Assembly (NCBI RefSeq): GCF_001999905.1
Contig: NZ_CP019640.1
Coordinates: forward strand, 3,328,001 to 3,392,000
Reading direction: 5' to 3'
Source of the DNA: Planococcus lenghuensis
GTDB taxonomy: Bacteria > Bacillota > Bacilli > Bacillales_A > Planococcaceae
Length of the DNA: 64,000 nt
Position 1 is the first letter of the stretch, and the number at the start of each line of letters is the position of its first letter. This document shows positions 42,050 through 62,021 of the stretch, piece by piece. The notes under the pieces are model-generated. The model was not told where the DNA came from and did not search any database. It saw nothing but the letters and a program-made list of their open reading frames with translations. A program made the translations under genes and the position numbers.

Positions 42050-43900
42050 ATGCGCAATCCAACGATTGCTTCTACCGATTATACCATGCAACCACCTCTT
42101 CCGTCAGGTGAATTACTTGAACATGAAATCGTAGTCTCCACCCAAGGGCGCCCGCCGGCGCCCGCATTCAAACCGTATGATCCGACCCAGGCCTTATCCA
42201 TTCCTGATATTGGCGCCCTGATTCCCGACCATCATGTGGCTCGTGTGGTGGATCAGTTGGTTGAGGCTTTCCCCGATGAGGTGTTGACCGCCTGCTACCC
42301 TGGCGGGGGGCGACCACCCTTTCACCCGAAACTGATGCTCAAAGTTATTCTCTATGCCTATTCCCAAAAAGTTTATTCCTGCCGGGGCATCGCCACGATG
42401 CTGCACGAGGATCTTCCGGCGATCTGGCTGGCGGCGATGCAGAAACCGGATTTCCGGACCATCAACCATTTCCGGAGCGTCCGAATGGGAGCGGTCATCG
42501 ATCAGTTATTCGAGTTCACTGTTTTGGAACTTCACCGGCAAGGGTTTGTCGAGTTTGAGAACTATTTCCTGGACGGGACGAAGATGGAAGCGGACGCCAA
42601 TAAGTATAGCTTTGTCTTCTGTAAGGCGGTGACGGGGCGGGAAGCGAAACTGAAAATCAGAATCCAGGAAACGCTTCAGGAAATCCAGGAGATTGCCAAG
42701 GCGGAGGGATTGGAACTGGGCCAGCTGGCCGAGGAGCCGGCGGCTGTGGAATTGGCTTCAGTTGCGAACCGGCTGGAAGACCAAGTGGATATCCTGACGG
42801 ATCTCATCGCTGAGGAAAAGCTCGTGGAAAACAGAAAAGGACTCCGCAAACGGCACAGTCTCCTGAAAAAGAAAGTGAAACTGATTCGTGAAAACTTCAT
42901 TCCTCGCCAAGAAACGTATGCGGAACAGCTCGCCGTCTGTGGAGAGCGCAACAGCTTCTCGAAGACGGACCCGGACGCCACATTCATGCGGATGAAGGAA
43001 GATCATATGAAGAATGGCCAGCTGAAACCCGGATACAATATCCAGATGGCGACCGAGAATCAATTTGTACTGTTCTATACCATTCATCAGCGCCCAGGAG
43101 ATGCTCGCTGCCTGATTCCACATCTGGAAGAGCTGCAGGCATCTGCCCTGCCTATGCCGAAGACCATCGTCGCGGATGCCGGCTATGGAAGCGAAGAGAA
43201 CTACCTCTACCTGATCGGGGATGAAAAAGAACCACTTGCCGGCTTCCTGATCCCGTATGGCACCTATCTGAAAGAGCAGACGAAGAAGTTTAAAAACAAT
43301 GAATGGAACGCGAAAAACTGGACGTATGAAGAAGCGGATGACCGATTCATCTGTCCAAACGGCCGCCGCGTCGTTTTCAAAAGGTATCAGGAGAAGAAAA
43401 ATGCATCGGGCTTTGTTCAGTCCTATAGAATCTACGAATGTGAAGACTGTACCGGATGTCCGCTGAAAGAATCGTGTACCAAGGCGAAAGGGAACCGTCA
43501 GGTTCACTGGAACCCGGTCTACGAGGAATTGAAAATGAAAGCGAAAGAAGCCCTTGAATGTGAGGACCGAAAACTGGTATACGCCCGAAGAAAAATCGAG
43601 GTGGAAACCGGTTTCGGCGATATCAAGGGCAATTTGGCGTTCCGCCGGTTCCATCTCCGGGGGCTTCAGAAAGTGCACATCGAATTCGGACTCATCGCCA
43701 TGGCGCATAATTTTCGGAAAGTGGCCGGTTTCCTCCGGTCACTTTCCGAAAAAGCGAACTTTAAAAAAACAGGGAGAGAACAACCGATTGGTTATTCTCT
43801 CCCTGTTTTTAATTTAGGGGGCTTTTTGGACAGCCCCTTCCATGTGTTTCAGCTCTTATCCGAATTGCCGGAAAGGTTGATCCCGTTTCAGTGTACTTAA
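42050..43900 (+). CDS. IS1182-family transposase
   Basis: A 616-residue DDE transposase. The N-terminal domain (FHPKLMLKVILYAYSQKVYS CRGIATML region) is the DUF772/IS1182 hallmark; the first catalytic Asp is in YFLDGTKMEADANKYSF, the second in TIVADAGYGSEENYLYL, and the Glu in RKIEVETGFGDIKGNLAFRR. A coiled segment lies between about residues 190 and 290. The stop lies 60 bases beyond the right inverted repeat, so the last 20 or so residues (from DSPFHVFQ) are read from flanking DNA. ATG 42050 has AGAAAGGA upstream. The gene looks intact. Confidence 0.9.
   Translation: MRNPTIASTDYTMQPPLPSGELLEHEIVVSTQGRPPAPAFKPYDPTQALSIPDIGALIPDHHVARVVDQLVEAFPDEVLTACYPGGGRPPFHPKLMLKVILYAYSQKVYSCRGIATMLHEDLPAIWLAAMQKPDFRTINHFRSVRMGAVIDQLFEFTVLELHRQGFVEFENYFLDGTKMEADANKYSFVFCKAVTGREAKLKIRIQETLQEIQEIAKAEGLELGQLAEEPAAVELASVANRLEDQVDILTDLIAEEKLVENRKGLRKRHSLLKKKVKLIRENFIPRQETYAEQLAVCGERNSFSKTDPDATFMRMKEDHMKNGQLKPGYNIQMATENQFVLFYTIHQRPGDARCLIPHLEELQASALPMPKTIVADAGYGSEENYLYLIGDEKEPLAGFLIPYGTYLKEQTKKFKNNEWNAKNWTYEEADDRFICPNGRRVVFKRYQEKKNASGFVQSYRIYECEDCTGCPLKESCTKAKGNRQVHWNPVYEELKMKAKEALECEDRKLVYARRKIEVETGFGDIKGNLAFRRFHLRGLQKVHIEFGLIAMAHNFRKVAGFLRSLSEKANFKKTGREQPIGYSLPVFNLGGFLDSPFHVFQLLSELPERLIPFQCT
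43764..43810. terminator. Hairpin at the 3' end of the IS
   Basis: AAAACAGGGAGAGAA pairs with TTCTCTCCCTGTTTT around CAACCGATTGGTTA (which can fold further). It lies inside the last codons of the transposase and is T-rich on both strands, so it probably limits readthrough into or out of the element. Confidence 0.7.
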
Positions 43901-45731: not shown

Positions 45732-47666
45732 TTAGCTAATGTCACCTATGAGTTTCGCTCTGTATTTCTCGACTTTCTTCGCTATTTTTGTGTCCTCCGG
45801 CACGGAAGTGCCATGTACTAGTTCATGACATTTCTTGTGGAGGCTAGCGAGATTAGTAATTTTGTTTACTTCGTCGAGTGGTAAGGTAGGGCTGATATGG
45901 TGGCATTGTAGCTCCACTGGTAAAATATCGCCGGCACATACTTTACATTTTCCTCTATCTCTGTTGAACGCATATTCCCTGTTCATATAGAATTCAAAGT
46001 TATACTTTCTAAGATTCTTTTTATCGGATTTCAGCATGTTTCGTTTGGCTATTCGGAATACGTCTTCGTTCTTGTCATAGAGTGGGAGTCTGTTAAGACT
46101 CTGATTCTTTTTCGCATTCTTGTAGTAAAGTTCTCGTCCTTCAACCGTATAAGGGGTTAAATTCTGATTAAAGCACTGTGGGTCTTCCGATTTCGTGTGT
46201 AGGAATTTTGTAATTCCAACCCATTCTCCTTCTACTTCCACTGCATGAGTTTCGGCGGTATAGCCTTCGTGTCTCTTGCGTCGGTTAGAAAGTTCGGAAT
46301 ATCTTTTCAGTTTAGCTTTATTTTTACCATTGTTCTGGTTGCGATAGAGTTTCTTCCACGTGTAGTGACTGGTAACGAAGACTTTATGGTCTAAGGAGTC
46401 AAAAATTTCTGTCCAGACCGCTGTCTTGTAATATTCAGATAAACCAACGATTTTAGAGTTCACTTTCTCGATTATCACAGCTTTCTGATAGTCGCATTGT
46501 GTTCTCCTAATCTGCTTAATGTCCTTTAGAATCTCTGCCGTTTTTGTTCTAACCTTTTTCATATCAGGTAGAATTCTGGCATATAACTCATGTTTCTTAG
46601 CATTTCCAGTTCTGCCTATGCTCTTTCGAGGTTTGGCCAATTCAACTTGGAAGCCGAGAAATTTCATTCTATTTTCTTTAAGGTCAGTGATGACAGTCTT
46701 TTCTTCCGAAAGTTCAAGATTCAATTTCGCCTTGAAGTATCTTTTCAGATACTCCAATTGCTTTTCGGCTTGTTCTTTCGTTTTCGTGAAGATCACCCAG
46801 TCATCTGCGTATCTAACTAGAAATACAGGTTGCCTACCTACCTTCCGAAATTTCCTACGAGCATTTTTGACGTTCGAGAATTCATCCGCAAAGTATGGAT
46901 TTTCATACCTGCTGGAGACAGTCCAATCAAAATCGTTCAAATACACATTTGCGAGAATAGGGCTGATAATACCACCTTGCGGTGTACCTTTGTCGGTATC
47001 GTGGAATTTGAAATCTTCCTCGATAATCCCCGATTTCAGCATTTTCTTGATTAACGCGAGAACGCGTTTATCAATAATCCCAATTTTGTGCAATTTACGC
47101 ATTAGCACAGCATGGTCAATATTATCGAAGTAGCCTTTTATATCTCCTTCAATGACGTATTCATATCTCCCAATGTTAATTAGATGAGCAACTCTTGCGA
47201 TAGCATGGTGTGTAGACCTGTAAGGTCTAAATCCGTAACTATGCTCGTAGAGTTTTGCCTCTATTATGGGTTCTATAACAATTTTAATGCACTGTTGGAT
47301 GATTCTATCCAACATAGTTGGAATACCGAGGGGTCTAGTTTTACCCGTATTTCCTTTCGGAATATGTTTTCTTCTGGCGGGTTGAGGATTATAGTTCTCC
47401 ATCGCTCTCCGTACCGTCCGAATGAGTTTCTCTCTGGGCATTTGTAGAAAATGGTTGATGGTCTTATTATCAATGCCCGCTGTCATACTGCCCTTATTCG
47501 ACTTTATGTCGTGTATTGCAGTTATGATAGTTTGGTCATTAATAATGACTTCATACAATCCATTTAGGGATTTTCCCTCTTTGGACTCTTGATACATGGA
47601 GTCCAGAGTCAGCTTCAAGTCCTTTTCGGACTTGATTTGGCAATTAACCTCCACCTTTGTACACAC
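45732..47666 (-). CDS. ltrA: Group II intron reverse transcriptase/maturase (LtrA-like)
   Basis: A 644-residue intron-encoded protein that helps splicing and copies the intron into new sites. The RT domain runs from RT0 to RT7: KTRPLGIPTMLDRIIQQCI, YGFRPYRSTHHAIARV, VIEGDIKGYFDNIDHAVL, GTPQGGIISPILANVYLND and the catalytic FLVRYADDWVIFTKTKEQAE (YADD). The maturase X domain follows (residues about 420-520) and a C-terminal HNH-type endonuclease with CKVCAGD...LQCHHISP...LHKKCHEL. All key residues are present, so it may be active. GTG/ATG start near 47666 lies inside intron domain IV. Confidence 0.93.
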   Translation of the reverse strand: MCTKVEVNCQIKSEKDLKLTLDSMYQESKEGKSLNGLYEVIINDQTIITAIHDIKSNKGSMTAGIDNKTINHFLQMPREKLIRTVRRAMENYNPQPARRKHIPKGNTGKTRPLGIPTMLDRIIQQCIKIVIEPIIEAKLYEHSYGFRPYRSTHHAIARVAHLINIGRYEYVIEGDIKGYFDNIDHAVLMRKLHKIGIIDKRVLALIKKMLKSGIIEEDFKFHDTDKGTPQGGIISPILANVYLNDFDWTVSSRYENPYFADEFSNVKNARRKFRKVGRQPVFLVRYADDWVIFTKTKEQAEKQLEYLKRYFKAKLNLELSEEKTVITDLKENRMKFLGFQVELAKPRKSIGRTGNAKKHELYARILPDMKKVRTKTAEILKDIKQIRRTQCDYQKAVIIEKVNSKIVGLSEYYKTAVWTEIFDSLDHKVFVTSHYTWKKLYRNQNNGKNKAKLKRYSELSNRRKRHEGYTAETHAVEVEGEWVGITKFLHTKSEDPQCFNQNLTPYTVEGRELYYKNAKKNQSLNRLPLYDKNEDVFRIAKRNMLKSDKKNLRKYNFEFYMNREYAFNRDRGKCKVCAGDILPVELQCHHISPTLPLDEVNKITNLASLHKKCHELVHGTSVPEDTKIAKKVEKYRAKLIGDIS

Positions 47667-51985: not shown

Positions 51986-53059
51986 TTAGTGATTCATCTT
52001 TAAAACAGGCTTGATGACTGAACCATTCTCTGATTCTTCAAAGGCTTTATTTATTTGATCAAACTCATAGAACTTTACCATCCGGTCAAACGGGAATTGT
52101 CCCTTCTTGTAGTAAGAAATCATTTCCGGAATGAATGTTTGCGGCGTTGCATCGCCCTGACTGGTTCCTACAATGCTGGCGCCTCTTAATGCCAGGATTT
52201 CCAGAGGGATTGAAAGATGATAATCTGTGACGACAGTAGCCAGTTTCCCAAAAGAATCTAGTGCCGCGATTGCTTGTGCAACCACTGAGTCCACGCCGGT
52301 CGTATCGAGTGCATGCTGCACTCCTCCGCCGGTGATTTCTTTGATCTTCTCAGCAATATCCACGTCTTTGCCACTTTTTATAGAAGCTGTCGCGCCCAGC
52401 TCTTCAGCCAGCTCTAATCGATTTTCATGGAGATCAATGGCAATGATATTTTTGCAACCGGCGATTTTAGCGGCCATAATCGCACTTAATCCAACGGCTC
52501 CGACTCCATACACCGCGATGGAACTGCCAGCTTCAGGCTTTAGCACATTCAATACACTGCTGGCTCCTGTTTGCAGGCCGCAACCCAGTGGTGCCGCTAA
52601 AGCCAAGTCCATGTCCTCATCGATTTTCACAACATTCCTTTGGTTAACGAGTGAGTATGTTGCAAAGGAAGATTGCCCAAAGAATCTGGAAACCAATTTA
52701 TTGGTGTCTTGATCTATATGGCTGTTTAAATTCAATTCACCGTAATGCCTGCAATGTGCAGGATGGCCGGTCATGCAATTATCGCAATGCCCGCAACTTG
52801 CAAATGAGACGACCACGTGATCCCCTTTTTGGAGATCGGTAACTTCAAAGCCTGTCTCTTCAACGATTCCAGCGCCTTCATGGCCAAGAACTGCAGGCGG
52901 ATCGACCATCCCTGTGTCTCTCCCTGAAACATCCGTATGGCAAATACCGGATGCTATCACTTTGATTAACACATCTTTCGACTCAAGTTCAGGCAATTCA
53001 ATATCAGTCATTTCAAAAGGCTGTCCCGTTTGTGGGGTGACTGCAGCTTTAATTTTCAT
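51986..53059 (-). CDS. Zinc-dependent alcohol dehydrogenase (aryl-alcohol type)
   Basis: A 357-residue medium-chain dehydrogenase. Catalytic zinc: GICHTDVSGRD (Cys) and VLGHEGAGIVEETG (His-Glu). Structural zinc: four Cys in SCGHCDNCMTGHPAHCRHYG. The NAD site is VYGVGAVGLSAIMAAKIAG followed by AIDLHENRLEL (Asp, NAD preference). FFGQSSFATYSLVNQRNVVK and GCGLQTGASSVLNV match benzyl-alcohol dehydrogenases (XylB/AreB). ATG 53059 is preferred because GGGGAG lies nine bases before; the longer frame to 53080 has none. Single gene with its own terminator. Confidence 0.88.
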   Translation of the reverse strand: MKIKAAVTPQTGQPFEMTDIELPELESKDVLIKVIASGICHTDVSGRDTGMVDPPAVLGHEGAGIVEETGFEVTDLQKGDHVVVSFASCGHCDNCMTGHPAHCRHYGELNLNSHIDQDTNKLVSRFFGQSSFATYSLVNQRNVVKIDEDMDLALAAPLGCGLQTGASSVLNVLKPEAGSSIAVYGVGAVGLSAIMAAKIAGCKNIIAIDLHENRLELAEELGATASIKSGKDVDIAEKIKEITGGGVQHALDTTGVDSVVAQAIAALDSFGKLATVVTDYHLSIPLEILALRGASIVGTSQGDATPQTFIPEMISYYKKGQFPFDRMVKFYEFDQINKAFEESENGSVIKPVLKMNH

Positions 53060-53199
53060 GATTATGCTCTCCCCTTCCATAAATTATGTATTCGTTTTCT
53101 TCCGACAATTAATTATAACAATAGATTTATACCCAATCCAAACATCGGCCTGGTGGTTATTGATATGCAGTTCTTTTAATTTAATTCATGTCTGTCCTT

Positions 53200-53310
53200 T
53201 CCCTGTCTTGAAAGTCGTTCGAACGCACTGCGGATGAATACTTCCCACCACTCCTGCTGGTGCAGGCTTGAAGTGGGGGCTTCCCACTTCGAAAGCCGAC
53301 ACCTTTGCCA
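53200..53310 (-). mobile_element. Candidate solo right end of an IS200/IS605-type (tnpB) element
   Basis: On the minus strand a perfect hairpin AAGTGGG-AAGCC-CCCACTT (53271-53289) is followed by CCTGC-ACCA-GCAGG (53253-53266) and GTGGTGGGAAG. This CCCCCAC...GGTGGG layout is typical of the right end/omega-RNA region of IS1341-type tnpB elements. No tnpB or tnpA coding sequence is present nearby, so it would be a remnant. Confidence 0.4.
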
Positions 53311-53330
53311 CCTGTATTCCTTCTAAGCAA

Positions 53331-54659
53331 TCACCCTCTTCGGGCCGCCTGCTGCACCGGATCCCATGTCCCGTTAAACGGCGGTGCATACGCGAGATCC
53401 AGATCTTCCAGTTCATGAAGCCGCATGCCGACATAGAGAGCTGTCGCCAGCACATCGATCCGCTTATCCGCCCCGTTTTCCCCGATGACCTGCCCGCCGA
53501 GCAGCAGCTCATCATGCGCGCCATATACGAGTTTGACGTGCAGCGGTTTCGGATTTGGATAATAGCCGGCGATGTCTTTCGCTTTTACAGTCATAGCCTT
53601 CACCGGAATCCCCATCGCTTCCACCTCTTTTTCAGAAAGACCCGTCCGGGCAAGCGTAAGATCCATGAACTTCAGGATGGAAGTGCCGACGATCCCCTCG
53701 AATGTCTTAGGTATGCCAATCATATTGAGTCCCGCAATCCGGCCCTGTTTATTCGCTGTCGTGCCTAGCGGAATGTAATCGTCTTTCTTCTCTACGCGAT
53801 GGTATTGAACGGCACAGTCACCGGCCGCGTAAATATCCGGCACGTTCGTCTTCATGTAACGGTCGACCTGGATGGCGCCGCGCACGCTCGTGACAATGCC
53901 GGTGTCCGCAAGAAATTTCGTGTTCGGGTAGGCGCCGACCGATAGCAAAACAAGCTCCGCGGGATACGTTCCCTTATCTGTTTGGATGCTTTCCGCTTTG
54001 CCGTCGCCTATGACCGCTTCCACATTCTCTTCTGTGTGCACGTGAATGCCGTGCCGGTCCGCTTCCGCATGGATGTGCTCCGCCATGTCGGCATCGAAGA
54101 TTTTCGCGAGATGTCTGCCGCGCTCAATGATGTGCACTTCCTTTCCGAGTCCGCGGAACACTTCCGCCATCTCGAGTCCGATTGCGCCTCCGCCGACAAT
54201 GGCGACATGTTTTACGTCGTTTTCCAGGTTTCCCATGATGCTGTGGGCATCCGGAATGGTCTTCAGTACATGGACGCCCGGCAGATCATTGCCTTCGATC
54301 TGCGGTATGACCGGACTGGCACCTGTCGCGATAAGCAGCTTGTCATAGCTGTATTCGAACGGTTCCCCGGTCGCTGTCCGGGTCCCGGAAACTGTCTTTT
54401 CAATTGGATTGACTTCTTCAACGAGATGACCGGTTCTCGCATCGATTCCGTATTTTTCGCGGAACGTCTCCGGCGTGCGGGCGATGAGCCGGTCTGTTGA
54501 TGGAATCTGCCCGCTGATCGTATATGGAAGCCCGCACTGGCCGTAGGAGTAGGTTTCCCCTTTCTCGAGCGTCAGCACTTCCGCATTTTCACCTTTTCGC
54601 ACGATCTGCATGGCGGCACTCATGCCTGCCGCGTCACCGCCGATAATTACATATTTCAT
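53331..54659 (-). CDS. cdr: CoA-disulfide reductase / FAD-dependent disulfide oxidoreductase
   Basis: A 442-residue flavoprotein with two nucleotide sites, [20 protein letters not shown] (FAD) and [20 protein letters not shown] (NADPH), a redox-active single Cys in [12 protein letters not shown] (about residue 43), and [14 protein letters not shown]. Length and single-Cys motif are those of CoA-disulfide/persulfide reductases, which reduce CoA disulfides and, in sulfur clusters, CoA-persulfide or polysulfide. No C-terminal rhodanese is fused. Last gene of the sulfur cluster; AGAAGGATG lies before ATG 54659. Confidence 0.88.
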
Positions 54660-54759
54660 GGCTGCATCCTTCTCTTATCGTCATCTTCAGTTTTATCCCG
54701 CTGGTTATTCCTTTACTTACCCTGTTGCCGACTGTACACACGTATGGACACGCCGTGCT

Positions 54760-55536
54760 TCACAAAATATCAAGCCAAATCTTGACCGCTGTCGCCAGAA
54801 TCAGGAGTGCCAAGAGCCATTGGAGGAATTTCGTATTCGCTTTCTGGCCGACTTTCGCGCCGAGCGGAGCCGCAAGGAGGCTGGCCACGACCATGACAGC
54901 TGCCGGTCCGTACAGCACCTGATCGGTCAGTACTTTCCCGATCGTCGATCCGATCGACGAAATGAACGTGATGGCAAGTGATGTGGCGATGGTCATGCGG
55001 GTCGGAATCTTGAGCACCGTCAGCATAATCGGCACCAGGATGAAGGCACCGGCCGCCCCGACGATGCCGGCTGCGACACCGACAGCGAATGCGAGCCCCG
55101 CCGCGAGCCATTTATTAAACTTAACTTGATCTGCGGGGATATCATCCAGCCCTTTTTTCGGAATGAACATCATGACGACGGCAATCGTCGCCAGAATGGC
55201 GTACACCGTATTGATCGCAGCAGCCGACAGCAGGGTCGACCCGTAGCCGCCGATGAAACTCCCAATCAGGATGGCGCCGCCCATATAGGCGATCAGTGTC
55301 TTGTTCAGCAGCCCACTCTTCCGGTACGCCCAGACGCCGGCGATGGTTGCAAAGAATACCTGCACGGCACTGATGCCGGCCACTTCATGGGCGCCGAACG
55401 CGGCAAAGCCGAGCAGCGGCGGAATGTATAAGAGCATCGGATACTTGATGATCGAGCCGCCGATGCCGACCATGCCGGACAAAAAGGAGCCGACAAAACC
55501 GATCAGGAAAAGCACAATAATAAAATCGATGGACAT
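54760..55536 (-). CDS. TauE/SafE-family sulfite/thiosulfate exporter
   Basis: A 258-residue membrane protein with about eight helices in two repeats: [20 protein letters not shown] and [20 protein letters not shown], each carrying the family's G-x-x-G-x-G-G loop. In CstR-regulated operons this transporter exports sulfite or thiosulfate made by persulfide dioxygenases. It stands between tusA and cdr. AAGAAGGGGTAG precedes ATG 55536. Confidence 0.87.
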
Positions 55537-55598
55537 ACTACCCCTTCTTTCACATAAAAATAGCGGGACATCTGTGCGATGCCCCGCCGTCCCTGAAT

Positions 55599-55826
55599 TT
55601 AGCCTTTACGGATCCAGAACTTCAGGACGTCTCCTTCTTCACGCGTTTCAAGCAGCTCATGGCCGCCGGATTTTGACCAGGCGGCGAGGTCCGCTTTCGC
55701 TCCTTTGTCGGTTGCGTGGATTTCCAGCACCTGGCCGGATTCCATGTCTTTCATTTCTTTCCGTGTCTTGACGATCGGCATCGGGCAAGCGAGCCCTTTT
55801 GCGTCGAGTACTTTATCTGCATTCAT
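55599..55826 (-). CDS. tusA: TusA-family sulfur carrier
   Basis: A 75-residue carrier with the hallmark [20 protein letters not shown], whose Cys takes over persulfide sulfur. The second half ([20 protein letters not shown], then [19 protein letters not shown]) matches the N-terminal domain of the TusA-rhodanese protein at 57486-58055, so they are paralogues. ATG 55826 has AAGGAG ten bases upstream. Confidence 0.9.
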
Positions 55827-55874
55827 CAATAAATCGCTCCTTTTATATGGTAGTTGATTGTTAGTTCTTTTGAA

Positions 55875-57002
55875 TTACCTTACTGCACAGCGGTTCGGTC
55901 CGATTTCCATTTCCCGCTGACTTTCCTCATCCGGTGTGATTTTCCCCATATTCATCTGTCGGATTTCACCATAGGCGTTCGGCTGCGGCGGCAGGTTCTT
56001 TGTCACCATGTCCCGGAATGTCTGCTCATCTCCTACATTCAGTCCGTGGTTTTCTTCGAACAGCTCACCCAATTTTTTCGCGACCGAGCCATCTTCATTC
56101 AGTTCATCCATGATCATGAAATGGGCCGGCAGCACGATCAGTTCATCCGAAAGCTCACGATAGCGGCTGTACAGCGTCTCCCGCAGATCACCCACCCAGT
56201 CTTCCGCCAGGCCGGCGAGGTCGGGACGCCCGATCGAATCGATGAACAGAATATCACCTGTCATCAGGTATTTATGGTCGACGATGAATGACGTCGAGCC
56301 GATCGTGTGGCCCGGTGAATAGAGTGCCTGTACGGCAATCGGTGTACCGCCGACTGTCACTTCCAGCCCATCTTCCAGCGGTGCGTATTCGAATACGACT
56401 TCTTCCGCGTCTTTCGGCGGCAAATAGTACGTCGCCCCTGTCGCTTCCGCGATTTCGCGGCCGCCGGAAATGTGGTCGGCGTGGAGGTGCGTGTCGAACA
56501 CATGCTTGATCTGCGCATTTTTTTCTTTCGCAAAATCCAGGAATGTATCAGCCATGCGGGTAGCATCGATGATTGCCGCTTCCCCGCCGGAAATCGCCAT
56601 ATATGACAGGCAGCCTTTTCCGAGACGGACAAACTGGTACAGTTCGCCCCCGTCTTTCAAGTCCCCGATTTTCACGGGTTCCAGGTATTCACTCCATGCT
56701 TTCATGCCGCCTTCCAGATACGCAACATCCAGCCCCTCATCCGACAGCATTTCCGCCACCATCTGAGAAGAGCCGACTTTCGCGCAGACCACGAGGATTT
56801 CGCGGTCCTTCGGCAGTTTCTCCATGATTTCTTCCACCCCGTCGAGCAAGTCGAAGTACGGGACGTTCAAGTAATCGACCGTATAGCCTTCGATTTTCCA
56901 ATCCGCATAGGCATCTTCATTGCGGACATCCAAGATGAATAAGGGTGAGCGGCCCAGTACTTTCCGGGCCACTTCTTTTGCTGTCCAAGCTGTTACTGTC
57001 AT
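55875..57002 (-). CDS. Rhodanese-persulfide dioxygenase fusion (CstB/Blh-like)
   Basis: A 375-residue fusion. Residues 1-105 form a rhodanese with [17 protein letters not shown] and the active-site loop [17 protein letters not shown]; residues about 120-350 form a metallo-beta-lactamase fold with [48 protein letters not shown] and [10 protein letters not shown]. Such ETHE1-like enzymes oxidise persulfide to sulfite; the rhodanese supplies or takes sulfane sulfur. The order is opposite to S. aureus CstB, where the dioxygenase comes first. A CstR-type box overlaps its ribosome binding site. Confidence 0.88.
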
Positions 57003-57009
57003 ATCTAAA

Positions 57010-57025
57010 TTACCTCCCGGGGTAT
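57010..57025. promoter_or_regulatory. CstR-type box overlapping the fusion gene's ribosome binding site
   Basis: TTACCTCCCGGGGTAT has the ATACC...GGTAT plan of the boxes before cstR. The GGGAGGT ribosome binding site of the gene starting at 57002 lies within it, so repressor binding here could block an internal promoter. Confidence 0.5.
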
Positions 57026-57053
57026 ATTATTCGTTAAAAATTTTTTATTCCAC

Positions 57054-57449
57054 TTAAAATGTCAGCGTGACATCCGCGTCTTTTGCGAATTCCAGAAATG
57101 TCACAGCGCCGCCGACTTCAATGCCGTCAATAAAAGCTTCCTGCTCCAATTCCAATACGTCCATCGTCATCTGACAGCCGATGAACCGCACGCCGAGTTC
57201 CCGGGCCATTTCCACCAGTTCGGGAATCGCCGGCACGTTCGCTTTCTTGAATCCTTCAGCGATCCCTTCCTTGCCTTCAGGCAGCGCCAGCTGGCCGTAT
57301 GCTTCCTTATTAATGAGATTCAGGCCTTCGAATGTGAAGAAGATGGCGACTTCATGATCGCTCGCCGCTGCCGCCGTCGCGATATTGTACACTTTATACG
57401 CATCGAATAACGTCCCGTTTGATGCGATGATTGCTGTTTTTCCTGCCAT
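57054..57449 (-). CDS. DsrE/DsrF-like sulfur-transfer protein
   Basis: A 131-residue DsrE-fold protein: KTAIIASNGTLFDAYKVYNI, IFFTFEGLNLINKEAYGQLA and the conserved Cys stretch RFIGCQMTMDVLELEQEAF. The C-x-M-T-M-D motif recurs in the larger DsrE-like protein at 58797. Family members bind persulfide on this Cys and hand sulfur to TusA-like partners, two of which are encoded beside it. AGGAGG precedes ATG 57449. Confidence 0.85.
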   Translation of the reverse strand: MAGKTAIIASNGTLFDAYKVYNIATAAAASDHEVAIFFTFEGLNLINKEAYGQLALPEGKEGIAEGFKKANVPAIPELVEMARELGVRFIGCQMTMDVLELEQEAFIDGIEVGGAVTFLEFAKDADVTLTF

Positions 57450-57485
57450 GTTGAATTCCTCCTGTACTGATCGATTTCCTGATTT

Positions 57486-58055
57486 TCAGGCTTCGCTTTT
57501 TTCTGTGGGGCCATTCCATTCCGTCATGCCGTCCACGGCATTTTTGACCCGGTTGAATCCGTTATCCGCCAGCTGTTTCGCGGCAAAATCGCTTCGGTTG
57601 CCGGTCCGGCAGATGACGATGATCTCTTTATCCGTTTCCAGTTCTCCTGTGCGGCTTTCCAGTTCACCGAGCGGAATGGAAACAGCGCCCGGAATGTGGC
57701 CGAATGCGTATTCCGCGGGCTCCCGGACGTCCAACACAAGGATATCCTCACGGTTCAGCCGGTCCTGCAGATCTTCGTTCGTCACCGTGTGCGGGAACTG
57801 TTTTTCTTCTTTTTCTTCCGTTTCGCTCGCTTTGCGGAGGTAATGCTTCAGCGCGTCCCCTTCTTCTGTGGTGCCGAGGTATTGATGGCCGCTGGATTTT
57901 GCCCATGCCTTGATGTCCGCGAGCGACCCTTTATCCGTCGCCTGCACTTCGATCACCTGACCCGGTTCAAGCTCTACCATCGCTTTTTTCGTCCGCACGA
58001 TCGGCATCGGGCAGGCAAGTCCTTTCGCATCAAGCACTTTATCGGTCTGAATCAT
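57486..58055 (-). CDS. TusA-rhodanese fusion sulfurtransferase
   Basis: A 189-residue two-domain protein. Residues 1-75 are TusA ([20 protein letters not shown]); after a charged linker (SETEEKEEKQFP) residues about 95-185 form a rhodanese with ILVLDVREPAEYAFGHIPGA and the active loop IIVICRTGNRSDFAAKQL. The fusion implies direct sulfur transfer from rhodanese Cys to TusA Cys. AGGAGG precedes ATG 58055. Genes on both sides are within 40 bases. Confidence 0.9.
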   Translation of the reverse strand: MIQTDKVLDAKGLACPMPIVRTKKAMVELEPGQVIEVQATDKGSLADIKAWAKSSGHQYLGTTEEGDALKHYLRKASETEEKEEKQFPHTVTNEDLQDRLNREDILVLDVREPAEYAFGHIPGAVSIPLGELESRTGELETDKEIIVICRTGNRSDFAAKQLADNGFNRVKNAVDGMTEWNGPTEKSEA

Positions 58056-58094
58056 ACTAATTCCTCCTGTTTGGTTTCTTGCATTTAATGTCGT

Positions 58095-58391
58095 TTAAAC
58101 CGTGGGACCGTCCCATTCCAGCATACCGCCGGCCATGTTGATGATCCGGTATCCTCTCGCTTCAAGGAAACGTCCTGCCATTCCACTCCGTTTGCCGGAA
58201 CGGCAAACGAGAATGTGCTCTTTCGATTTGTCGAAATCCTGTATCCGGAATTCCACCAACCCAAGCGGAATGTTCACTGCCTGCGGAATCTTGCCGGCCC
58301 GGACTTCCGCCGTTTCCCGGACATCGATCACCGATGCTTCCGGATTACTCTCCAGATACGCCTGTACTTCCTGCGGTGTCATTTCTTTCAT
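58095..58391 (-). CDS. Single-domain rhodanese
   Basis: A 98-residue rhodanese: ASVIDVRETAEVRAGKIPQA, VNIPLGLVEFRI, and the active loop ILVCRSGKRSGMAGRFLEAR. No signal or membrane part, so cytoplasmic. ATG 58391 is chosen because GGGGGAG lies seven bases before it; ATG 58397 overlaps that site, and the longer frame to 58487 runs into the next gene. Confidence 0.87.
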   Translation of the reverse strand: MKEMTPQEVQAYLESNPEASVIDVRETAEVRAGKIPQAVNIPLGLVEFRIQDFDKSKEHILVCRSGKRSGMAGRFLEARGYRIINMAGGMLEWDGPTV

Positions 58392-58414
58392 GTCCATTCT
58401 CCCCCTGTTGCTGA

Positions 58415-58777
58415 TCAGCGCCATGCACCCATGCCGCCTCTGATATTTGTCACTTGGCTGAATCCATTCTTCTTTAATATGACGCACGCCCGATTGCTCC
58501 GCGCTCCGCTCTGGCAGATGACAACCGTTTCTTTTCCGCTGTCAAGTTCATCAAGCCGCTTCGGCAGTTCATTCAGCGGGATGTTTTTGAATGCCTTCAG
58601 TCCGTTCATCCGGTATTCCCCCCATGTCCGCACATCGATGAATTGCTTGTCTTTTGTCTTCAGCATCGGTTTCACTTCATCGGGCGTCACCGAAGAGATG
58701 CCTTTTGCCGGTCCGATGACCTTATAGACCAGCCAAACAGCGAGCGCACCGATAGCCAGCCAGCTTATAATCTCCAT
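58415..58777 (-). CDS. Membrane-anchored rhodanese
   Basis: A 120-residue protein. The N-terminal helix ISWLAIGALAVWLVYKVIG anchors it in the membrane; the rhodanese has FIDVRTWGEYRMNGLKAFKN and the loop TVVICQSGARSNRACVIL. Single-anchor rhodaneses of this kind occur in cst-like operons. The start at 58777 has AGAGGGATCG upstream; the frame continuing to 58870 overlaps the DsrE-like gene and is rejected. Confidence 0.87.
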   Translation of the reverse strand: MEIISWLAIGALAVWLVYKVIGPAKGISSVTPDEVKPMLKTKDKQFIDVRTWGEYRMNGLKAFKNIPLNELPKRLDELDSGKETVVICQSGARSNRACVILKKNGFSQVTNIRGGMGAWR

Positions 58778-58796
58778 TCGATCCCTCTTTCTTTGA

Positions 58797-59276
58797 TTAG
58801 ATGAACAGATTGACATTCCCATCTTCCGCATCCGCCAGATACGCGGCGACACCGGCGTAAGTGATATCATCGAGCAATTCCTCCTGCCGGAGACCGAGCA
58901 GGTCCATCGTCATCGTGCAAGCCACCAGGTTGATCTCCTGTTCCTGCGCCATTTCAACCAGTTGCGGCAAGGTCATGGCGTTGTGCTTCTTGATGACCTG
59001 TTTGATCATCTTCGGTCCCATGCCGTTCATATTCAGTTTGGATAACGGCAGTCTGTCCGCTCCCCGCGGCATCATTCTGGCAAACTGCCGTTCCAGGAAC
59101 CCTTTTTTCAATTCCGGCGGATGTTCTTTCCGCAGTGCATTCAGTCCCCAGAATGTATGGAAGATGGTGACTTCATGATCATAAGCCGCCGCTCCGTTCG
59201 CGATGATGTATGCAGCCATCACTTTATCGTAATCTCCACTAAAAAGGATAACGTTGGTCGTCTTTTTCTGTTCCAT
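58797..59276 (-). CDS. DsrE/DsrF/DrsH-like family protein
   Basis: A 159-residue protein: NVILFSGDYDKVMAAYIIAN, VTIFHTFWGLNALRKEHPPE, then MMPRGADRLPLSKLNMNGMG and the Cys stretch NLVACTMTMDLLGLRQEELL. It is the long form of the DsrE family seen in persulfide operons and a paralogue of the 131-residue protein at 57054. First structural gene after the CstR boxes. AGAAGGAG precedes ATG 59276. Confidence 0.87.
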   Translation of the reverse strand: MEQKKTTNVILFSGDYDKVMAAYIIANGAAAYDHEVTIFHTFWGLNALRKEHPPELKKGFLERQFARMMPRGADRLPLSKLNMNGMGPKMIKQVIKKHNAMTLPQLVEMAQEQEINLVACTMTMDLLGLRQEELLDDITYAGVAAYLADAEDGNVNLFI

Positions 59277-59296
59277 TCCGATTCTCCTTCTAATTA

Positions 59297-59312
59297 TACC
59301 CTCCGGGGTATA
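59297..59312. promoter_or_regulatory. CstR-type box before the sulfur operon
   Basis: ATACCCTCCGGGGTAT, an inverted repeat with GC core and ATACC/GGTAT ends, 20 bases upstream of the DsrE-like gene. It fits the operator type of CsoR/CstR repressors. Confidence 0.7.
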
Positions 59313-59356
59313 TTTTAAATTAAAAAAATAATGCGATTGACGATACGATGAGTAAT

Positions 59357-59372
59357 ACCACCAGGGGTATGT
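59357..59372. promoter_or_regulatory. CstR-type box, second copy before the sulfur operon
   Basis: ATACCACCAGGGGTAT, 60 bases from the first box. Two boxes suggest cooperative repression of the promoter between cstR and the DsrE-like gene. Confidence 0.65.
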
Positions 59373-59419
59373 TATCAAGCAAAACCAAATCCGTCAACAA
59401 TGACGTCTGACGGATTCGG

Positions 59420-59680
59420 TTATCTGCTTCGGACGAGCAGTTCCACGGCTTCCTTCACAACTTTATCCGTATCTTCGCCGCTTTCGACACTTTCACGCAC
59501 ACATTGTTCCAGGTTTTCGCTGACGATGACCCCGATTGTACGATCCACTGCACTGCGGACAGCCGACAGCTGCATGACCACATCGCGGCAGTCGCCGTCT
59601 TTCTCCATCATTTGGAGTACGCCGCGGATTTGACCCTCAATCCGTTTCAGCCGATTTTCGACTTTTTTATCATACTGCAT
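59420..59680 (-). CDS. cstR: CstR-like persulfide-sensing repressor (CsoR family)
   Basis: An 86-residue all-helical repressor: VENRLKRIEGQIRGVLQMME, Cys in DGDCRDVVMQLSAVRSAVD and Cys in SENLEQCVRESVE. Copper-sensing CsoR has a His three residues before the second Cys region (HLxxC); here it is Asn, as in CstR, which senses persulfides through its two Cys. It heads the sulfur operon and has its own box at 59734-59749. AAAGGAG precedes ATG 59680. Confidence 0.87.
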   Translation of the reverse strand: MQYDKKVENRLKRIEGQIRGVLQMMEKDGDCRDVVMQLSAVRSAVDRTIGVIVSENLEQCVRESVESGEDTDKVVKEAVELLVRSR

Positions 59681-59733
59681 CTGGAATCGTTCTCCTTTTT
59701 AAAGTGGAATCTCTTGCTTACATCCCCTATAAT

Positions 59734-59749
59734 ATACCCCTTTGGGTAT
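59734..59749. promoter_or_regulatory. CstR-type box before cstR
   Basis: ATACCCCTTTGGGTAT, a near-perfect inverted repeat about 55 bases before cstR, suggesting autoregulation. Confidence 0.7.
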
Positions 59750-59791
59750 GCAAGCAAGTATTATGCTCCACTCAGGAGAACATGAATCGTT

Positions 59792-60106
59792 TTAGTGTTG
59801 GCCACCTTCATGGTGCTGATCATGCAGAGCTTCCATCTCCTCAAAGTCCATCGAATCCATATGCTCCATCATCTGTGTATGATGGCCTTTCATCAACTGC
59901 TCGCCGTTTCCATTCATCATGCCATGCATCATGTTCATCATGCCATCGCCATTTCCATTCATCATGCCGTTCATCATATTGACCATGCCGCCATCTTCCG
60001 GCATTCCATTTTCTGCGCCATTGCCGTGTGCCATTCCCACTGTACCCGTCACTAGTAAAGCGGCCAAAGCGGTTGATGCGATGAGTGTATATTTTCTGCG
60101 TTTCAC
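59792..60106 (-). CDS. Met/His-rich secreted low-complexity protein
   Basis: A 104-residue protein with a signal peptide (RRKYTLIASTALAALLVTGTV, cleavage probably after MAHG) and a mature part of about 80 residues, in which nearly one residue in four is Met and many others are Gly, Asn, His, Glu. The unit MMNGNG repeats within NMMNGMMNGNGDGMMNMM; the tail EALHDQHHEGGQH is His-rich. Such composition is known from extracellular copper/silver-binding proteins; metal binding here is inference. GTG 60106 has AAAGGACGG upstream. At DNA level the repeat region 59915-59990 is tandem. Confidence 0.72.
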   Translation of the reverse strand: MKRRKYTLIASTALAALLVTGTVGMAHGNGAENGMPEDGGMVNMMNGMMNGNGDGMMNMMHGMMNGNGEQLMKGHHTQMMEHMDSMDFEEMEALHDQHHEGGQH

Positions 60107-60183
60107 CGGTATCCGTCCTTTCGTTATGATTACCGTTTAAAATAATTTCTTTAGCGAAAAACCAAGCATTTCATCGATCAAAT

Positions 60184-60197
60184 TACCTGTACGGGTA
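60184..60197. promoter_or_regulatory. Possible CsoR/CstR-type box before the Met-rich gene
   Basis: TACCTGTACGGGTA is an imperfect version of the ATACC...GGTAT boxes, about 80 bases before the Met-rich gene. Its position fits an operator, but the match is weaker. Confidence 0.35.
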
Positions 60198-60217
60198 TAG
60201 GGTTCTGCAAAAAAAAA

Positions 60218-60601
60218 TTACGCCGACCGATCAATGCAGGTTTTTAGCCGCTGTTCGATGTCTTCCGCGATCGCCTTCAGTTTATCATTTTCAACCATGT
60301 CGATGAGCGCGGTCGGTCTTGGCATCCCGATTTTCGTCGTATCCCCATCTTCATATACGACGATTTTGCATGGCAGGAAGTACCCGACGAGCAGTTCCTC
60401 AGACAGCACTTTATTCGCCTCTTGAGGGTTGCACACTTCAAGCACCGTGAACGGTGTATCAAAATCCTCCCCTTTTTCCTGCAGCTTCGCCGTCAGGTCA
60501 AAGTTCCAAAGGACGCCGAACTTTTCTTCCTTTAAATTCTCCTCGAGCGCCCGGACAGCTTCATCCTTACTTTTCGCTGTTTCTACTGTGTAATTAAACA
60601 T
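60218..60601 (-). CDS. DUF302 domain protein
   Basis: A 127-residue cytoplasmic protein: FNYTVETAKSKDEAVRALEE, FGVLWNFDLTAKLQEKG, FTVLEVCNPQEANKVL and LPCKIVVYEDGDTTKIGMPR. These are DUF302 hallmarks. The family is common beside sulfur, copper and thioredoxin genes but has no defined activity. Two Cys (EVCNP, LPCK) could be functional. AAGAAGGGTAA precedes ATG 60601. Confidence 0.87.
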   Translation of the reverse strand: MFNYTVETAKSKDEAVRALEENLKEEKFGVLWNFDLTAKLQEKGEDFDTPFTVLEVCNPQEANKVLSEELLVGYFLPCKIVVYEDGDTTKIGMPRPTALIDMVENDKLKAIAEDIEQRLKTCIDRSA

Positions 60602-60706
60602 CGGTTACCCTTCTTTCTCATTTTGAATGATTTCCTCATTAATCCTTTTCCCTGTTCAGCCCGCTACAAAACTTGCCCTGCAGCCATATACTCAACTTCT
60701 GACACT

Positions 60707-61354
60707 CTAACCGAAGTTTCCAAGACAGTCTCTTTCCGTCGAACGGAACGTTTCCCTGCACAGTTTCTGATGGAGGATCCCTTCTTCGGCAGGCACTGCA
60801 TGAATCGCATAATGGACAGGATTCAAGCGCGTCACTTTCACATCGAATCCATTCAGCTGCAGAACCGGAACAATTTCTTCGATCGGGATCTTCCCCAGGA
60901 AGGGCGGTCCGTTTTGTGTCATCACAGATTCCCATTCAATGATCAGCAACTGGCCGGCAGGTTTTAAGATCCGCTTCGCTTCCCGGACCGCCCGATTCAG
61001 ATCGTCAGCCTCGTGGATAGAGAAAGCCGCGAGTATTTTATCGGCCGTATTGGCTCCCAGCGGAATTTCTTCCAGGCTGCTTTCTACGTATGCAATGTTA
61101 TCCAGCCCTTCTTTTTCCGCCTGCCGCTTCAGCAATGCGATCATTTCCGGCTGAATATCAACAGCCGTGACCACTTCCGGCATCCGCTTTGCCAAAGGAA
61201 TGGTAAAGTAACCGTTTCCTGCCCCCAATTCCAGCACTCGGTCTGTCGGACGAATAGCCAGCTGGTCAATGACCGTATCCGGCGGAAGCAGTGCTTTTCG
61301 CTCTTCACTCAACAGAACGTGGGCTCGCGCCGGATCCATCCGCTTTTGAATCAT
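60707..61354 (-). CDS. Class I SAM-dependent methyltransferase
   Basis: A 215-residue methyltransferase with motif I VLELGAGNGYFTIPLAKRM, VTAVDIQPEMIALLKRQ (acidic motif), ILAAFSIHEADDL and LKPAGQLLIIEWE. It resembles the ubiE/arsM-like group near metal and sulfur genes. After HYAIHAVPAEEG a 25-residue tail (HQKLCRETFRSTERDCLGN) continues beyond the usual end; it may be a read-on after loss of the original stop. Substrate unknown. AAAGGGTG precedes ATG 61354. Confidence 0.83.
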   Translation of the reverse strand: MIQKRMDPARAHVLLSEERKALLPPDTVIDQLAIRPTDRVLELGAGNGYFTIPLAKRMPEVVTAVDIQPEMIALLKRQAEKEGLDNIAYVESSLEEIPLGANTADKILAAFSIHEADDLNRAVREAKRILKPAGQLLIIEWESVMTQNGPPFLGKIPIEEIVPVLQLNGFDVKVTRLNPVHYAIHAVPAEEGILHQKLCRETFRSTERDCLGNFG

Positions 61355-61693: not shown

Positions 61694-61954
61694 TCACTTG
61701 CTTCGGATGAGCAAATCAACCGCTTCTTTCATGACTGCAGCGGATTCCTCTCCATTTGTTAACCGCTTGACGAGGCATTGCTGTAAATTTCCACCGACCA
61801 CGGTACCAATTGCTTCATCTACCGTGTTCCTGATGACCACTAACTCTTCTGCGACGTTCTTACATTCCGCTTCGTTTTCCATCAAATGAAGAATGCTTTT
61901 GATCCCTCCTTCAATTTGCCGCAGCTTGTCCATTACTTCACCATCGTATTTCAA
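61694..61954 (-). CDS. Second CstR/CsoR-family repressor
   Basis: An 86-residue paralogue of CstR: EVMDKLRQIEGGIKSILHLM, Cys in ENEAECKNVAEELVVIRN and Cys in GGNLQQCLVKRL. The copper-site His is Asn here too, so thiol sensing is more likely than copper. TTG 61954 is taken as start: AAGGAGGAG lies just upstream, and a longer frame to 62044 would run through the operator at 62006-62021. Probably controls itself and the SHOCT and methyltransferase genes downstream. Confidence 0.8.
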   Translation of the reverse strand: MKYDGEVMDKLRQIEGGIKSILHLMENEAECKNVAEELVVIRNTVDEAIGTVVGGNLQQCLVKRLTNGEESAAVMKEAVDLLIRSK

Positions 61955-62005
61955 ATCAGCTTCTCCTCCTTCTGTGTTTACCTGAACTGCTTTCACCCCA
62001 AGAGT

Positions 62006-62021
62006 ATACCCCCGGGTGTAT
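62006..62021. promoter_or_regulatory. CsoR/CstR-type box before the second repressor
   Basis: ATACCCCCGGGTGTAT, the same ATACC...GTAT plan with a GC core, 52 bases upstream of the TTG start. Confidence 0.65.

Follow-up and report, generated by a model that had tools for sequence, protein, structure and literature searches.

A 64,000-nucleotide stretch of Planococcus lenghuensis DNA (contig NZ_CP019640.1, positions 3,328,001 to 3,392,000; hereafter the window, whose own numbering we use) contains ten adjacent genes for a repressor and reactive-sulfur proteins, all on the minus strand between 53331 and 59680. This cluster is an extended form of the yrkDEFHIJ cassette known from Bacillales and is mostly ordinary. 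Our analysis makes it probable that it acts as a CstR-controlled cassette clearing sulfane sulfur (persulfide, polysulfide). The ten genes had been listed in an earlier note made from the letters alone; all are open frames in the order given there, and Pfam confirms their content, including the tally of four rhodanese, two TusA and two DsrE domains. Genome-wide, we found matches for two TusA and two DsrE/DsrE2 genes, every one inside the cluster. The features are listed below in transcription order (PDO, persulfide dioxygenase; MBL, metallo-beta-lactamase).

59734–59749, unstranded: CstR-type operator palindrome ATACCCCTTTGGGTAT, 0 mismatches, upstream of cstR (motif scan)
59420–59680, minus: CstR/YrkD-type repressor, 86 residues (Pfam Trns_repr_metal, 1.4e-25)
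59355–59370, unstranded: operator-like palindrome, 1 mismatch, in the cstR-dsrE gap (motif scan)
59296–59311, unstranded: operator palindrome, 0 mismatches, just upstream of the first dsrE (motif scan)
58797–59276, minus: DsrE2-like carrier a (YrkE type), Cys120 (PF13686, 2.2e-65)
58415–58777, minus: single-domain rhodanese with a hydrophobic N-terminal stretch (PF00581, 6.8e-16)
58095–58397, minus: single-domain soluble rhodanese (PF00581, 2.7e-15)
57486–58055, minus: TusA-rhodanese fusion, YrkF type (PF01206, 6.5e-23; PF00581, 1.8e-21)
57054–57449, minus: DsrE2-like carrier b, shorter accessory paralogue, Cys92 (PF13686, 7.8e-33)
55875–57002, minus: rhodanese-first PDO-like protein, YrkH type (Pfam Rhodanese, then Lactamase_B)
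55599–55829, minus: free TusA, YrkI type (PF01206, 2e-24)
55562–55588, minus: terminator-like hairpin, 11 pairs followed by ATTTTTATGT, between tusA and tauE (terminator scan)
54760–55536, minus: TauE/SafE exporter, YrkJ type (PF01925, 3.3e-43)
53331–54659, minus: CoA-disulfide-reductase-like protein, 442 residues, without a rhodanese domain (Pfam Pyr_redox_2; NF007123, 2.4e-134)

The genes are separated, in the same order, by 143, 19, 17, 39, 36, 51, 45, 62 and 100 bp, where the 17-bp value assumes that the soluble rhodanese starts at 58397 (an ATG after GGGGGAG), most likely its true start rather than that of the longer open frame. The right end at 59749 drawn by the earlier note coincides with that of the perfect palindrome and lies outside the ten genes.

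Kinship with the yrk cassette

The window contains CstR, DsrE2, TusA-rhodanese, rhodanese-MBL, TusA and TauE, the same six kinds of protein in the same order as yrkDEFHIJ of Bacillus subtilis and as the yrkD-pdo cluster of 11 genes in B. licheniformis MW3 (PMC9918477). Further shared traits are a repressor of CstR type with operators on either side of yrkD, in front of the gene and in the gap to yrkE, and a hairpin separating tusA from tauE. The window differs from them by two extra rhodaneses, a second DsrE and the adjoining CoA-disulfide-reductase-like gene, and by lacking the nreBC, sqr and second pdo genes found behind yrkJ in B. licheniformis. In the B. licheniformis record that we compared, the yrk gene order agrees with that of the window; the yrkD-yrkE gap contains a perfect palindrome, and a copy with one mismatch precedes yrkD. 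This record comes from a plasmid collection, is 75 kb long, linear and carries housekeeping genes, so that it is perhaps a piece of chromosome, and its broken frames were compared in pieces. In B. licheniformis, YrkD represses the core and elemental sulfur induces it, the transcript of the yrk genes runs on into sqr and a second pdo, and the cluster is of help under cysteine and sulfane-sulfur stress (PMC9918477).

We surveyed relatives by scanning genome contigs for the PDO and retaining the best 80 of 196 confirmed loci, nearly all labelled Bacillales; genes were counted within 8 kb on the same strand as best phmmer match with a score of at least 50. Since the loci were picked by the PDO, its frequency among them is uninformative, and since some loci end at contig ends, absences are over-counted. 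The fusion of TusA and rhodanese is found in all 80 loci, followed by TusA (79), DsrE a (75), TauE (74), CstR (70), the soluble rhodanese (63), a DUF302 gene (39), the membrane-type rhodanese (35), DsrE b (18) and the CoA-disulfide reductase (2). The six-gene core is complete in 65/80 loci, and the nine-gene set comprising all but the reductase in 14/80. Among whole genomes of the family, 121 of 151 have a PDO match at E <= 1e-100. An annotated Priestia plasmid carries an eight-gene version in the same order and the PDO recurs at 60–80% identity in 17 plasmid records, so the cassette also occurs outside chromosomes. The domain order that the earlier note called unusual is therefore common, given the 121 family genomes with the rhodanese-first MBL protein, the full-length relatives in haloarchaea and the TusA-rhodanese fusion in all 80 PDO-selected loci.

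The expected catalytic cysteines are kept in at least 79/80 relatives per family (for CstR C31, 0.99 of 70). The C-x-M-T-M-D motif that the earlier note saw in both DsrE proteins is indeed there, as C120-T-M-T-M-D in the first and C92-Q-M-T-M-D in the second, and its cysteine is kept in 75/75 and 18/18 relatives, respectively. Both proteins score below the cut-off of the NCBIfam SulfCarrDsrE2 family (NF047629; 87.0 and 98.3 bits against 210) and are thus relatives of that family, not members. DsrE b lies between tusA-rhodanese and PDO in 17 of the 18 loci that have it. The fusion keeps C15 and C149 each in 0.99 of 80 relatives, the soluble rhodanese C65 in 63/63 and the membrane-type rhodanese C88 in 35/35; the hydrophobic N-terminal stretch of the latter is a putative membrane anchor.

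The staphylococcal cst operon is another counterpart. In a plasmid record of Staphylococcus equorum, the CstR and TauE homologues share 46% and 41% identity with those of the window (46.5% for CstR to the decimal), and a one-mismatch palindrome lies between cstR and cstA. DsrE a is 49% identical to residues 201–355 of S. equorum CstA, a protein that joins rhodanese, TusA and DsrE2 in one chain, whereas the window encodes them as separate genes. CstB has its rhodanese last and the window's dioxygenase has it first, so the arrangement is not that of a cst operon.

Repressor, operators and the extent of the unit

The CsoR fingerprint includes a metal-ligand His at the position equivalent to CstR residue 56. 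The window's repressor has both cysteines, C31 and C60, and an Asn at position 56, that is, two cysteines without a metal-ligand His between them, the pattern expected of a CstR persulfide sensor. Among 70 relatives, C31 is kept in 0.99, C60 in 1.0 and N56 in at least 97%.

The palindrome ATACCCnnnnGGGTAT is perfect at 59734 and 59296 and has one mismatch at 59355 and 62006. In the entire 4.15-Mb genome, it occurs at up to one mismatch in 7 places and the reversed pattern in none; 4 of the 7 are in the locus, including both perfect copies, which flank cstR. Both positions at which a yrk cassette carries its operators, upstream of the yrkD equivalent and between the yrkD and yrkE equivalents, thus hold a perfect predicted site. 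The 59296 palindrome sits in the same gap as IR2 of B. licheniformis, where YrkD recognises DNA in front of both yrkD and yrkE, IR2 included, but fails to bind after treatment with elemental sulfur (PMC9918477). A promoter-like match at 59397–59369 overlaps the 59355 palindrome; the scan in question found fewer such matches than shuffles do. Across the 80 loci (1.59 Mb), we counted 236 palindrome sites, compared with 14 for the control. Such sites precede cstR in 51/70 loci, dsrE a in 55/75, DUF302 in 13/39 and tusA-rhodanese in 32 of 85 copies, less often upstream of TusA (9/88) and PDO (5/80), and never upstream of the membrane rhodanese (0/35) or DsrE b (0/18).

Several candidate sites were set aside. 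Of the three one-mismatch palindromes outside the locus, one appears by eye to directly precede a lexA-like frame, and the other two fall within frames resembling a pyridoxal enzyme and a Mur ligase, respectively; we judged them to be chance or a LexA box and claim no second regulon member. The two-mismatch sites at 57010 and 60183 are weak and were not counted as operators; the former overlaps the ribosome-binding site of the dioxygenase gene.

We could not confirm the ten genes as a single transcription unit, given the terminator-like hairpin between tusA and tauE and the 100-bp gap between tauE and the reductase gene. By a rule written after the window's hairpin had been seen, a hairpin is present in the tusA-tauE gap of 47/67 relatives, compared with 0.8 expected from single-base shuffles, and is missing in 20/67. 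Of ten other gaps, eight lack hairpins; the TusA-rhodanese/PDO gap has one in 3/50 and the cstR-dsrE gap in 12/48, the latter of which may reflect the operator palindromes. Behind tauE, 39/78 relatives have a hairpin that is absent from the window. B. licheniformis also has a hairpin between yrkI and yrkJ, and the transcriptional change of yrkH was 5.3-fold larger than that of nreC behind it; its genes are co-transcribed despite the hairpin (PMC9918477). The conserved hairpin with its T tract suggests, as far as sequence can, conserved attenuation of exporter expression.

Matches to the reductase at E <= 1e-120 occur in 74/151 family genomes. Coordinates compared by eye place it less than 3 kb from the PDO only in the window's genome; five genomes, all of a single genus, come next with a distance of about 10–14 kb. 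Indiicoccus explosivorum, the closest named relative, has no reductase behind tauE; a strong hairpin comes there instead, and then a convergent gene (LysR-like by eye). Within 8 kb on the same strand, just 2/80 loci have a reductase: L042 and L069, where a longer form (frames of 567 and 658 residues) lies upstream with an operator. In L049, a 638-residue reductase stands just behind tauE on the opposite strand. In Enterococcus faecalis, CstR controls CoAPR, a CoA-disulfide-reductase-family flavoenzyme with a rhodanese domain, in an operon with single rhodaneses (PMC9405070). Together, these cases indicate that the functional association recurs, yet the window's own arrangement is a local one. 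The name CoA-disulfide reductase given by the earlier note finds matching NCBIfam models whose curated cut-offs are missed, narrowly for the best, NF007123 (448.3 of 458 bits), and widely for the next (444.7 of 578.8 bits). CoAPR combines a reductase domain, with its catalytic Cys, and a C-terminal rhodanese whose Cys it needs (PMC9405070); the window protein scores below the cut-offs in its reductase-like part and lacks the rhodanese. Hence the reductase is a neighbour by position outside the conserved cassette. With the conserved hairpin and a local reductase, we prefer to describe the ten genes as a unit of eight, followed by an attenuated tauE and by a reductase gene whose membership is unproven.

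Elsewhere in the genome (C1:3629689-3631014), a second CoA-disulfide-reductase-like gene is 87% identical to 53331–54659, and it adjoins a methyltransferase gene 47% identical to that at 60707–61354. A recent duplication was considered and dropped: the window copy, the second copy and one in the related genome G012 differ from each other to much the same degree (86–87% identical), and the latter two share no other neighbour frame, so we claim no recent copying event. Downstream of the cluster, the reductase gene is followed by an alcohol dehydrogenase gene.

The rhodanese-first dioxygenase-like protein

The PDO-like protein has a rhodanese domain at residues 9–105 (Cys73) and an MBL domain at about 117–366, which carries H172-x-H174-x-D176-H177, H232, D250, H294 and a GRPDL motif; Cys131 and Cys372 are further cysteines of interest. 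The iron-ligand set of His, His and Asp and the HxHxDH network are those of the PDO superfamily. H172, H174, H177, H232 and H294 are kept in 80/80 relatives and D176 and D250 in at least 97% of the 80 and in 37/37, and all seven residues are present in 11/11 haloarchaeal proteins. Cys73, Cys131 and Cys372 are likewise kept in 80/80 loci and 11/11 haloarchaeal proteins. The window's genome yielded just one match to PDO-like proteins at E <= 1e-5, this gene itself.

A structure model (mean pLDDT 79.7) matches 3TP9, hETHE1, 3R2U, the Beggiatoa PDO, BpPRF, Myxococcus xanthus ETHE1 and SdoA at Z 20.9–22.8 and the Pseudomonas aeruginosa PDO at 19.4, with glyoxalase II next at 16.6. We take 3R2U, from Staphylococcus aureus, to be CstB. 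The same MBL fold with a 2-His-1-Asp site is thus shared with CstB/3TP9 and with type I and II PDOs such as ETHE1, BpPRF and SdoA (Z 19.4–22.8). These matches mostly span residues 104–356, and the rhodanese part rests on Pfam and sequence. Since pLDDT falls below 50 at 229–235, 261–265 and 368–375, we claim no distance between Cys73, Cys131 or Cys372 and the metal.

In type III PDOs, the third motif His is replaced by Phe or Tyr (PMC6060420) and the rhodanese is C-terminal, whereas the window protein keeps H177 and has its rhodanese at 9–105. It also lacks the features of type I, namely GRTDF (an unpublished label that we took from aligned rows) and the absence of an N-terminal rhodanese. It shares GRPDL with CstB but, unlike CstB, keeps the third His of T-H-x-H-A-D-H. 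By its motifs, the protein fits none of the three described types: it has T-H-L-H-A-D-H as in types I and II, GRPDL as in CstB, and the rhodanese first. It is further set apart by the conserved Cys131, whose place holds other residues in the aligned CstB-like and single-domain rows. Cys372 is conserved too; a C-terminal Cys is also conserved among type I PDOs (C224/C247; PMC6060420), so Cys372 may or may not be new, as the alignment does not settle the correspondence. The rhodanese loop reads CAKxGSS, versus C-x-x-G-x-R-S in the other three rhodaneses of the cluster; we dropped CAKxGS as the mark of a special substrate because loops that end in Ser and a CAK start both occur in other rhodaneses (PMC8533005). 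A sulfurtransferase-first order is not new in itself, since Blh of the bigR operon places such a domain before its dioxygenase, with coupled activities and a TauE-related neighbour. The first domain of Blh is a DUF442 (1–141) of protein-tyrosine-phosphatase fold without a Pfam rhodanese, and BigR is a winged-helix repressor where the window has CstR (PMC5823870).

In the PDO tree, the Bacillota rhodanese-first clade is supported at 100/99, and the haloarchaeal rows remain unplaced on long branches; the link between Bacillota and haloarchaea therefore rests on domain order, the three cysteines and neighbours. Of 15 full-length archaeal rows listed, the loci of 11 were inspected. In 10 of the 11, a TusA-DsrE2 pair is transcribed away from the rhodanese-first MBL gene, behind which come genes for YeeE/YedE-type transporters; these ten stretches include TauE in 5 cases, another rhodanese in 2 and DUF302 in 2. 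In the papers that we consulted, we met no enzymatic assay of a rhodanese-first dioxygenase. Among the titles and abstracts listed for Planococcus/Sporosarcina and Haloferax, we found no paper on the cluster, though one may exist. This PDO branch is thus widespread, occurs in salt-loving archaea as well, and has apparently gone without an enzymatic test.

In Planococcus-type clusters, a second rhodanese-first PDO, 56–59% identical, lies between DUF302 and cstR (for example, L003 5979-7124); the window has none.

Proposed sulfur flow, competing explanations and neighbouring genes

Taken together, these data point to the following route. Sulfane sulfur that builds up would modify the two CstR cysteines and, by analogy with B. 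licheniformis YrkD, CstR would leave the palindromes upstream of cstR and dsrE, allowing expression. As their families suggest, the rhodaneses and DsrE2 carriers would take up sulfur and hand it on through TusA. The N-terminal rhodanese domain of the YrkH-type enzyme may then receive it, and the MBL iron site may oxidise it to sulfite or thiosulfate, which TauE would export at lower expression behind a partial terminator; the adjoining CoA-disulfide-reductase-like protein may repair CoA persulfides. The chain of capture, carriage, oxidation and export under CstR proposed by the earlier note is supported by the co-transcribed, YrkD-repressed and elemental-sulfur-derepressed B. licheniformis core, except for the membership of the reductase.

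The sulfur source in this route need not be an SQOR-type sulfide:quinone reductase (SQR), and the rhodanese-first PDO may be fed by protein carriers instead. We found no SQOR-type SQR at E <= 1e-40 in the window's genome and one in 15/151 family genomes; by hand count, 10 of the 121 PDO genomes have one, 111 do not, and 5 genomes have SQR without PDO. A classical sulfide oxidation pathway, in which SQR makes persulfide from H2S for the window PDO to oxidise, would be in keeping with the shared transcript of yrk genes, sqr and second pdo in B. licheniformis, but it is highly improbable given these counts and given that two of three fitting PF07992 frames are closest to NADH dehydrogenases: of L111, L112 and L113, the first two were compared by structure and are far closer to NDH-2. 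The genome has three Pyr_redox_2 frames of 551–552 residues (C1:1734074, C1:1783004, C2:212360), two of which are followed by a 464-residue frame. We regard as slightly less probable still that TusA, DsrE and the rhodaneses supply sulfur for tRNA thiolation or cofactors while the dioxygenase drains the excess. Both TusA matches of the genome do sit in the cluster, yet a CstR-type repressor with operators suggests induction by excess rather than a constitutive role in supply, both the dioxygenase and the exporter dispose of sulfur, and the B. licheniformis cluster protects against cysteine and sulfane-sulfur stress.

An operon for thiol or metal stress in general, with sulfane sulfur as one of several inducers, is unlikely but would account for the strong response of B. 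subtilis yrkEFHIJ to allicin and DAS4 (induced 6.5–11 log2; PMC6943732), for mentions of yrk genes in a literature listing of papers on mercury and on a gold compound, and for a Met/His-rich protein that has a weak two-mismatch operator-like site and is encoded just upstream of the cluster. Allicin and DAS4 themselves yield persulfides (PMC6943732), which speaks against it. So does the enzyme content of the cluster, which is sulfur-specific. The window's CstR, moreover, lacks the metal-ligand His of the CsoR fingerprint. Somewhat more doubtful is the suggestion, made in the earlier note, that the paralogous copies of rhodanese, TusA and DsrE work as dedicated partner pairs. The membrane rhodanese is always accompanied by the soluble one (34/34, in the 70 loci with full flanks), its co-occurrence with DsrE b (p 0.002, uncorrected for kinship) gives a hint only, and DsrE b has a nearly fixed place. 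The accessory genes, though, vary too freely, and nothing in our analysis ties a paralogue to one partner: TusA-rhodanese and TusA are kept in 80/80 and 79/80 loci, while DsrE b was not found in 62/80 and the membrane rhodanese in 45/80, some of them loci at contig ends. The 10 haloarchaeal loci with the pair hold one TusA each (10/10) and one DsrE gene in nine, two in the tenth. Obligatory partner pairs are thus not supported.

Clearance of sulfane sulfur under CstR control remains the reading that we favour, and several observations weigh against it. PMC9918477 describes YrkH as a hypothetical or likely PDO and the functions of YrkE, YrkF and YrkI as unknown. The SQR query was one Priestia plasmid protein, of SQOR type by its best structure matches, which limits the search, and L111, L112 and L113 have weak matches to the type III SQR model NF049943 (67.5, 59.1 and 50.7 bits against a cut-off of 525). 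A generic scan of 53000–60700 returned 10 terminator-like sites versus 7.9 in shuffled sequence and 2 promoter-like sites versus 7.0, so that it gives no support. One of 11 archaeal loci lacks TusA and DsrE; its organism has another copy of the gene in the usual setting. The YeeE/YedE-type neighbours in haloarchaea mean that thiosulfate may be the substrate there. Finally, the direction of sulfur flow among the carriers is not settled by sequence alone.

Upstream of cstR, the window continues with genes of related interest.

60218–60601, minus: DUF302 protein (PF03625, 1.8e-19)

The DUF302 gene likely belongs with the cluster. DUF302 genes are found in 39/80 clusters of relatives, with an operator upstream in 13/39, and near two haloarchaeal clusters. 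Among the papers listed in our literature search for DUF302, the only one that contains the word is a genome report (PMC5037610). Between DUF302 and cstR, 59792–60106 encodes a small, by eye secreted-looking protein rich in Met, His, Gly and Asn. It has no Pfam family and no match of score 50 in the 80 relatives' clusters, and is possibly metal-binding. Further upstream, a second CsoR/CstR-like repressor with two cysteines (61694–61996) has the one-mismatch operator at 62006–62021 directly before its likely GTG start and precedes SHOCT, methyltransferase and DUF302 genes. On the downstream side, what look by eye like an IS-type transposase (42050–43900) and a group II intron-type reverse transcriptase/maturase (45732–47666), the latter adjoining glyoxalase-like frames, are signs of a rearranged region.

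The cluster exemplifies the variation of a common Bacillales reactive-sulfur cassette, and a role of the DUF302 family in handling sulfane sulfur becomes a testable lead. The textbook pair of SQR and PDO does not describe Planococcaceae, in which the rhodanese-first PDO is present in most genomes searched, mostly occurs without an SQOR-type SQR and travels with TusA and DsrE2, as it does in haloarchaea. The fate of TusA/DsrE sulfur in non-lithotrophs becomes testable with five small purified proteins. We propose tentatively, as an idea that could well prove wrong, that the YrkH-type MBL proteins with three cysteines are a fourth PDO class in Bacillota and haloarchaea, SQR-free and fed by TusA/DsrE2 through their own rhodanese, in which sulfur would pass from the carrier persulfide to Cys73, on to Cys131 and/or Cys372, and to the iron. 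If true, a protein-to-protein route of sulfane-sulfur oxidation would exist beside the route through low-molecular-weight persulfides.

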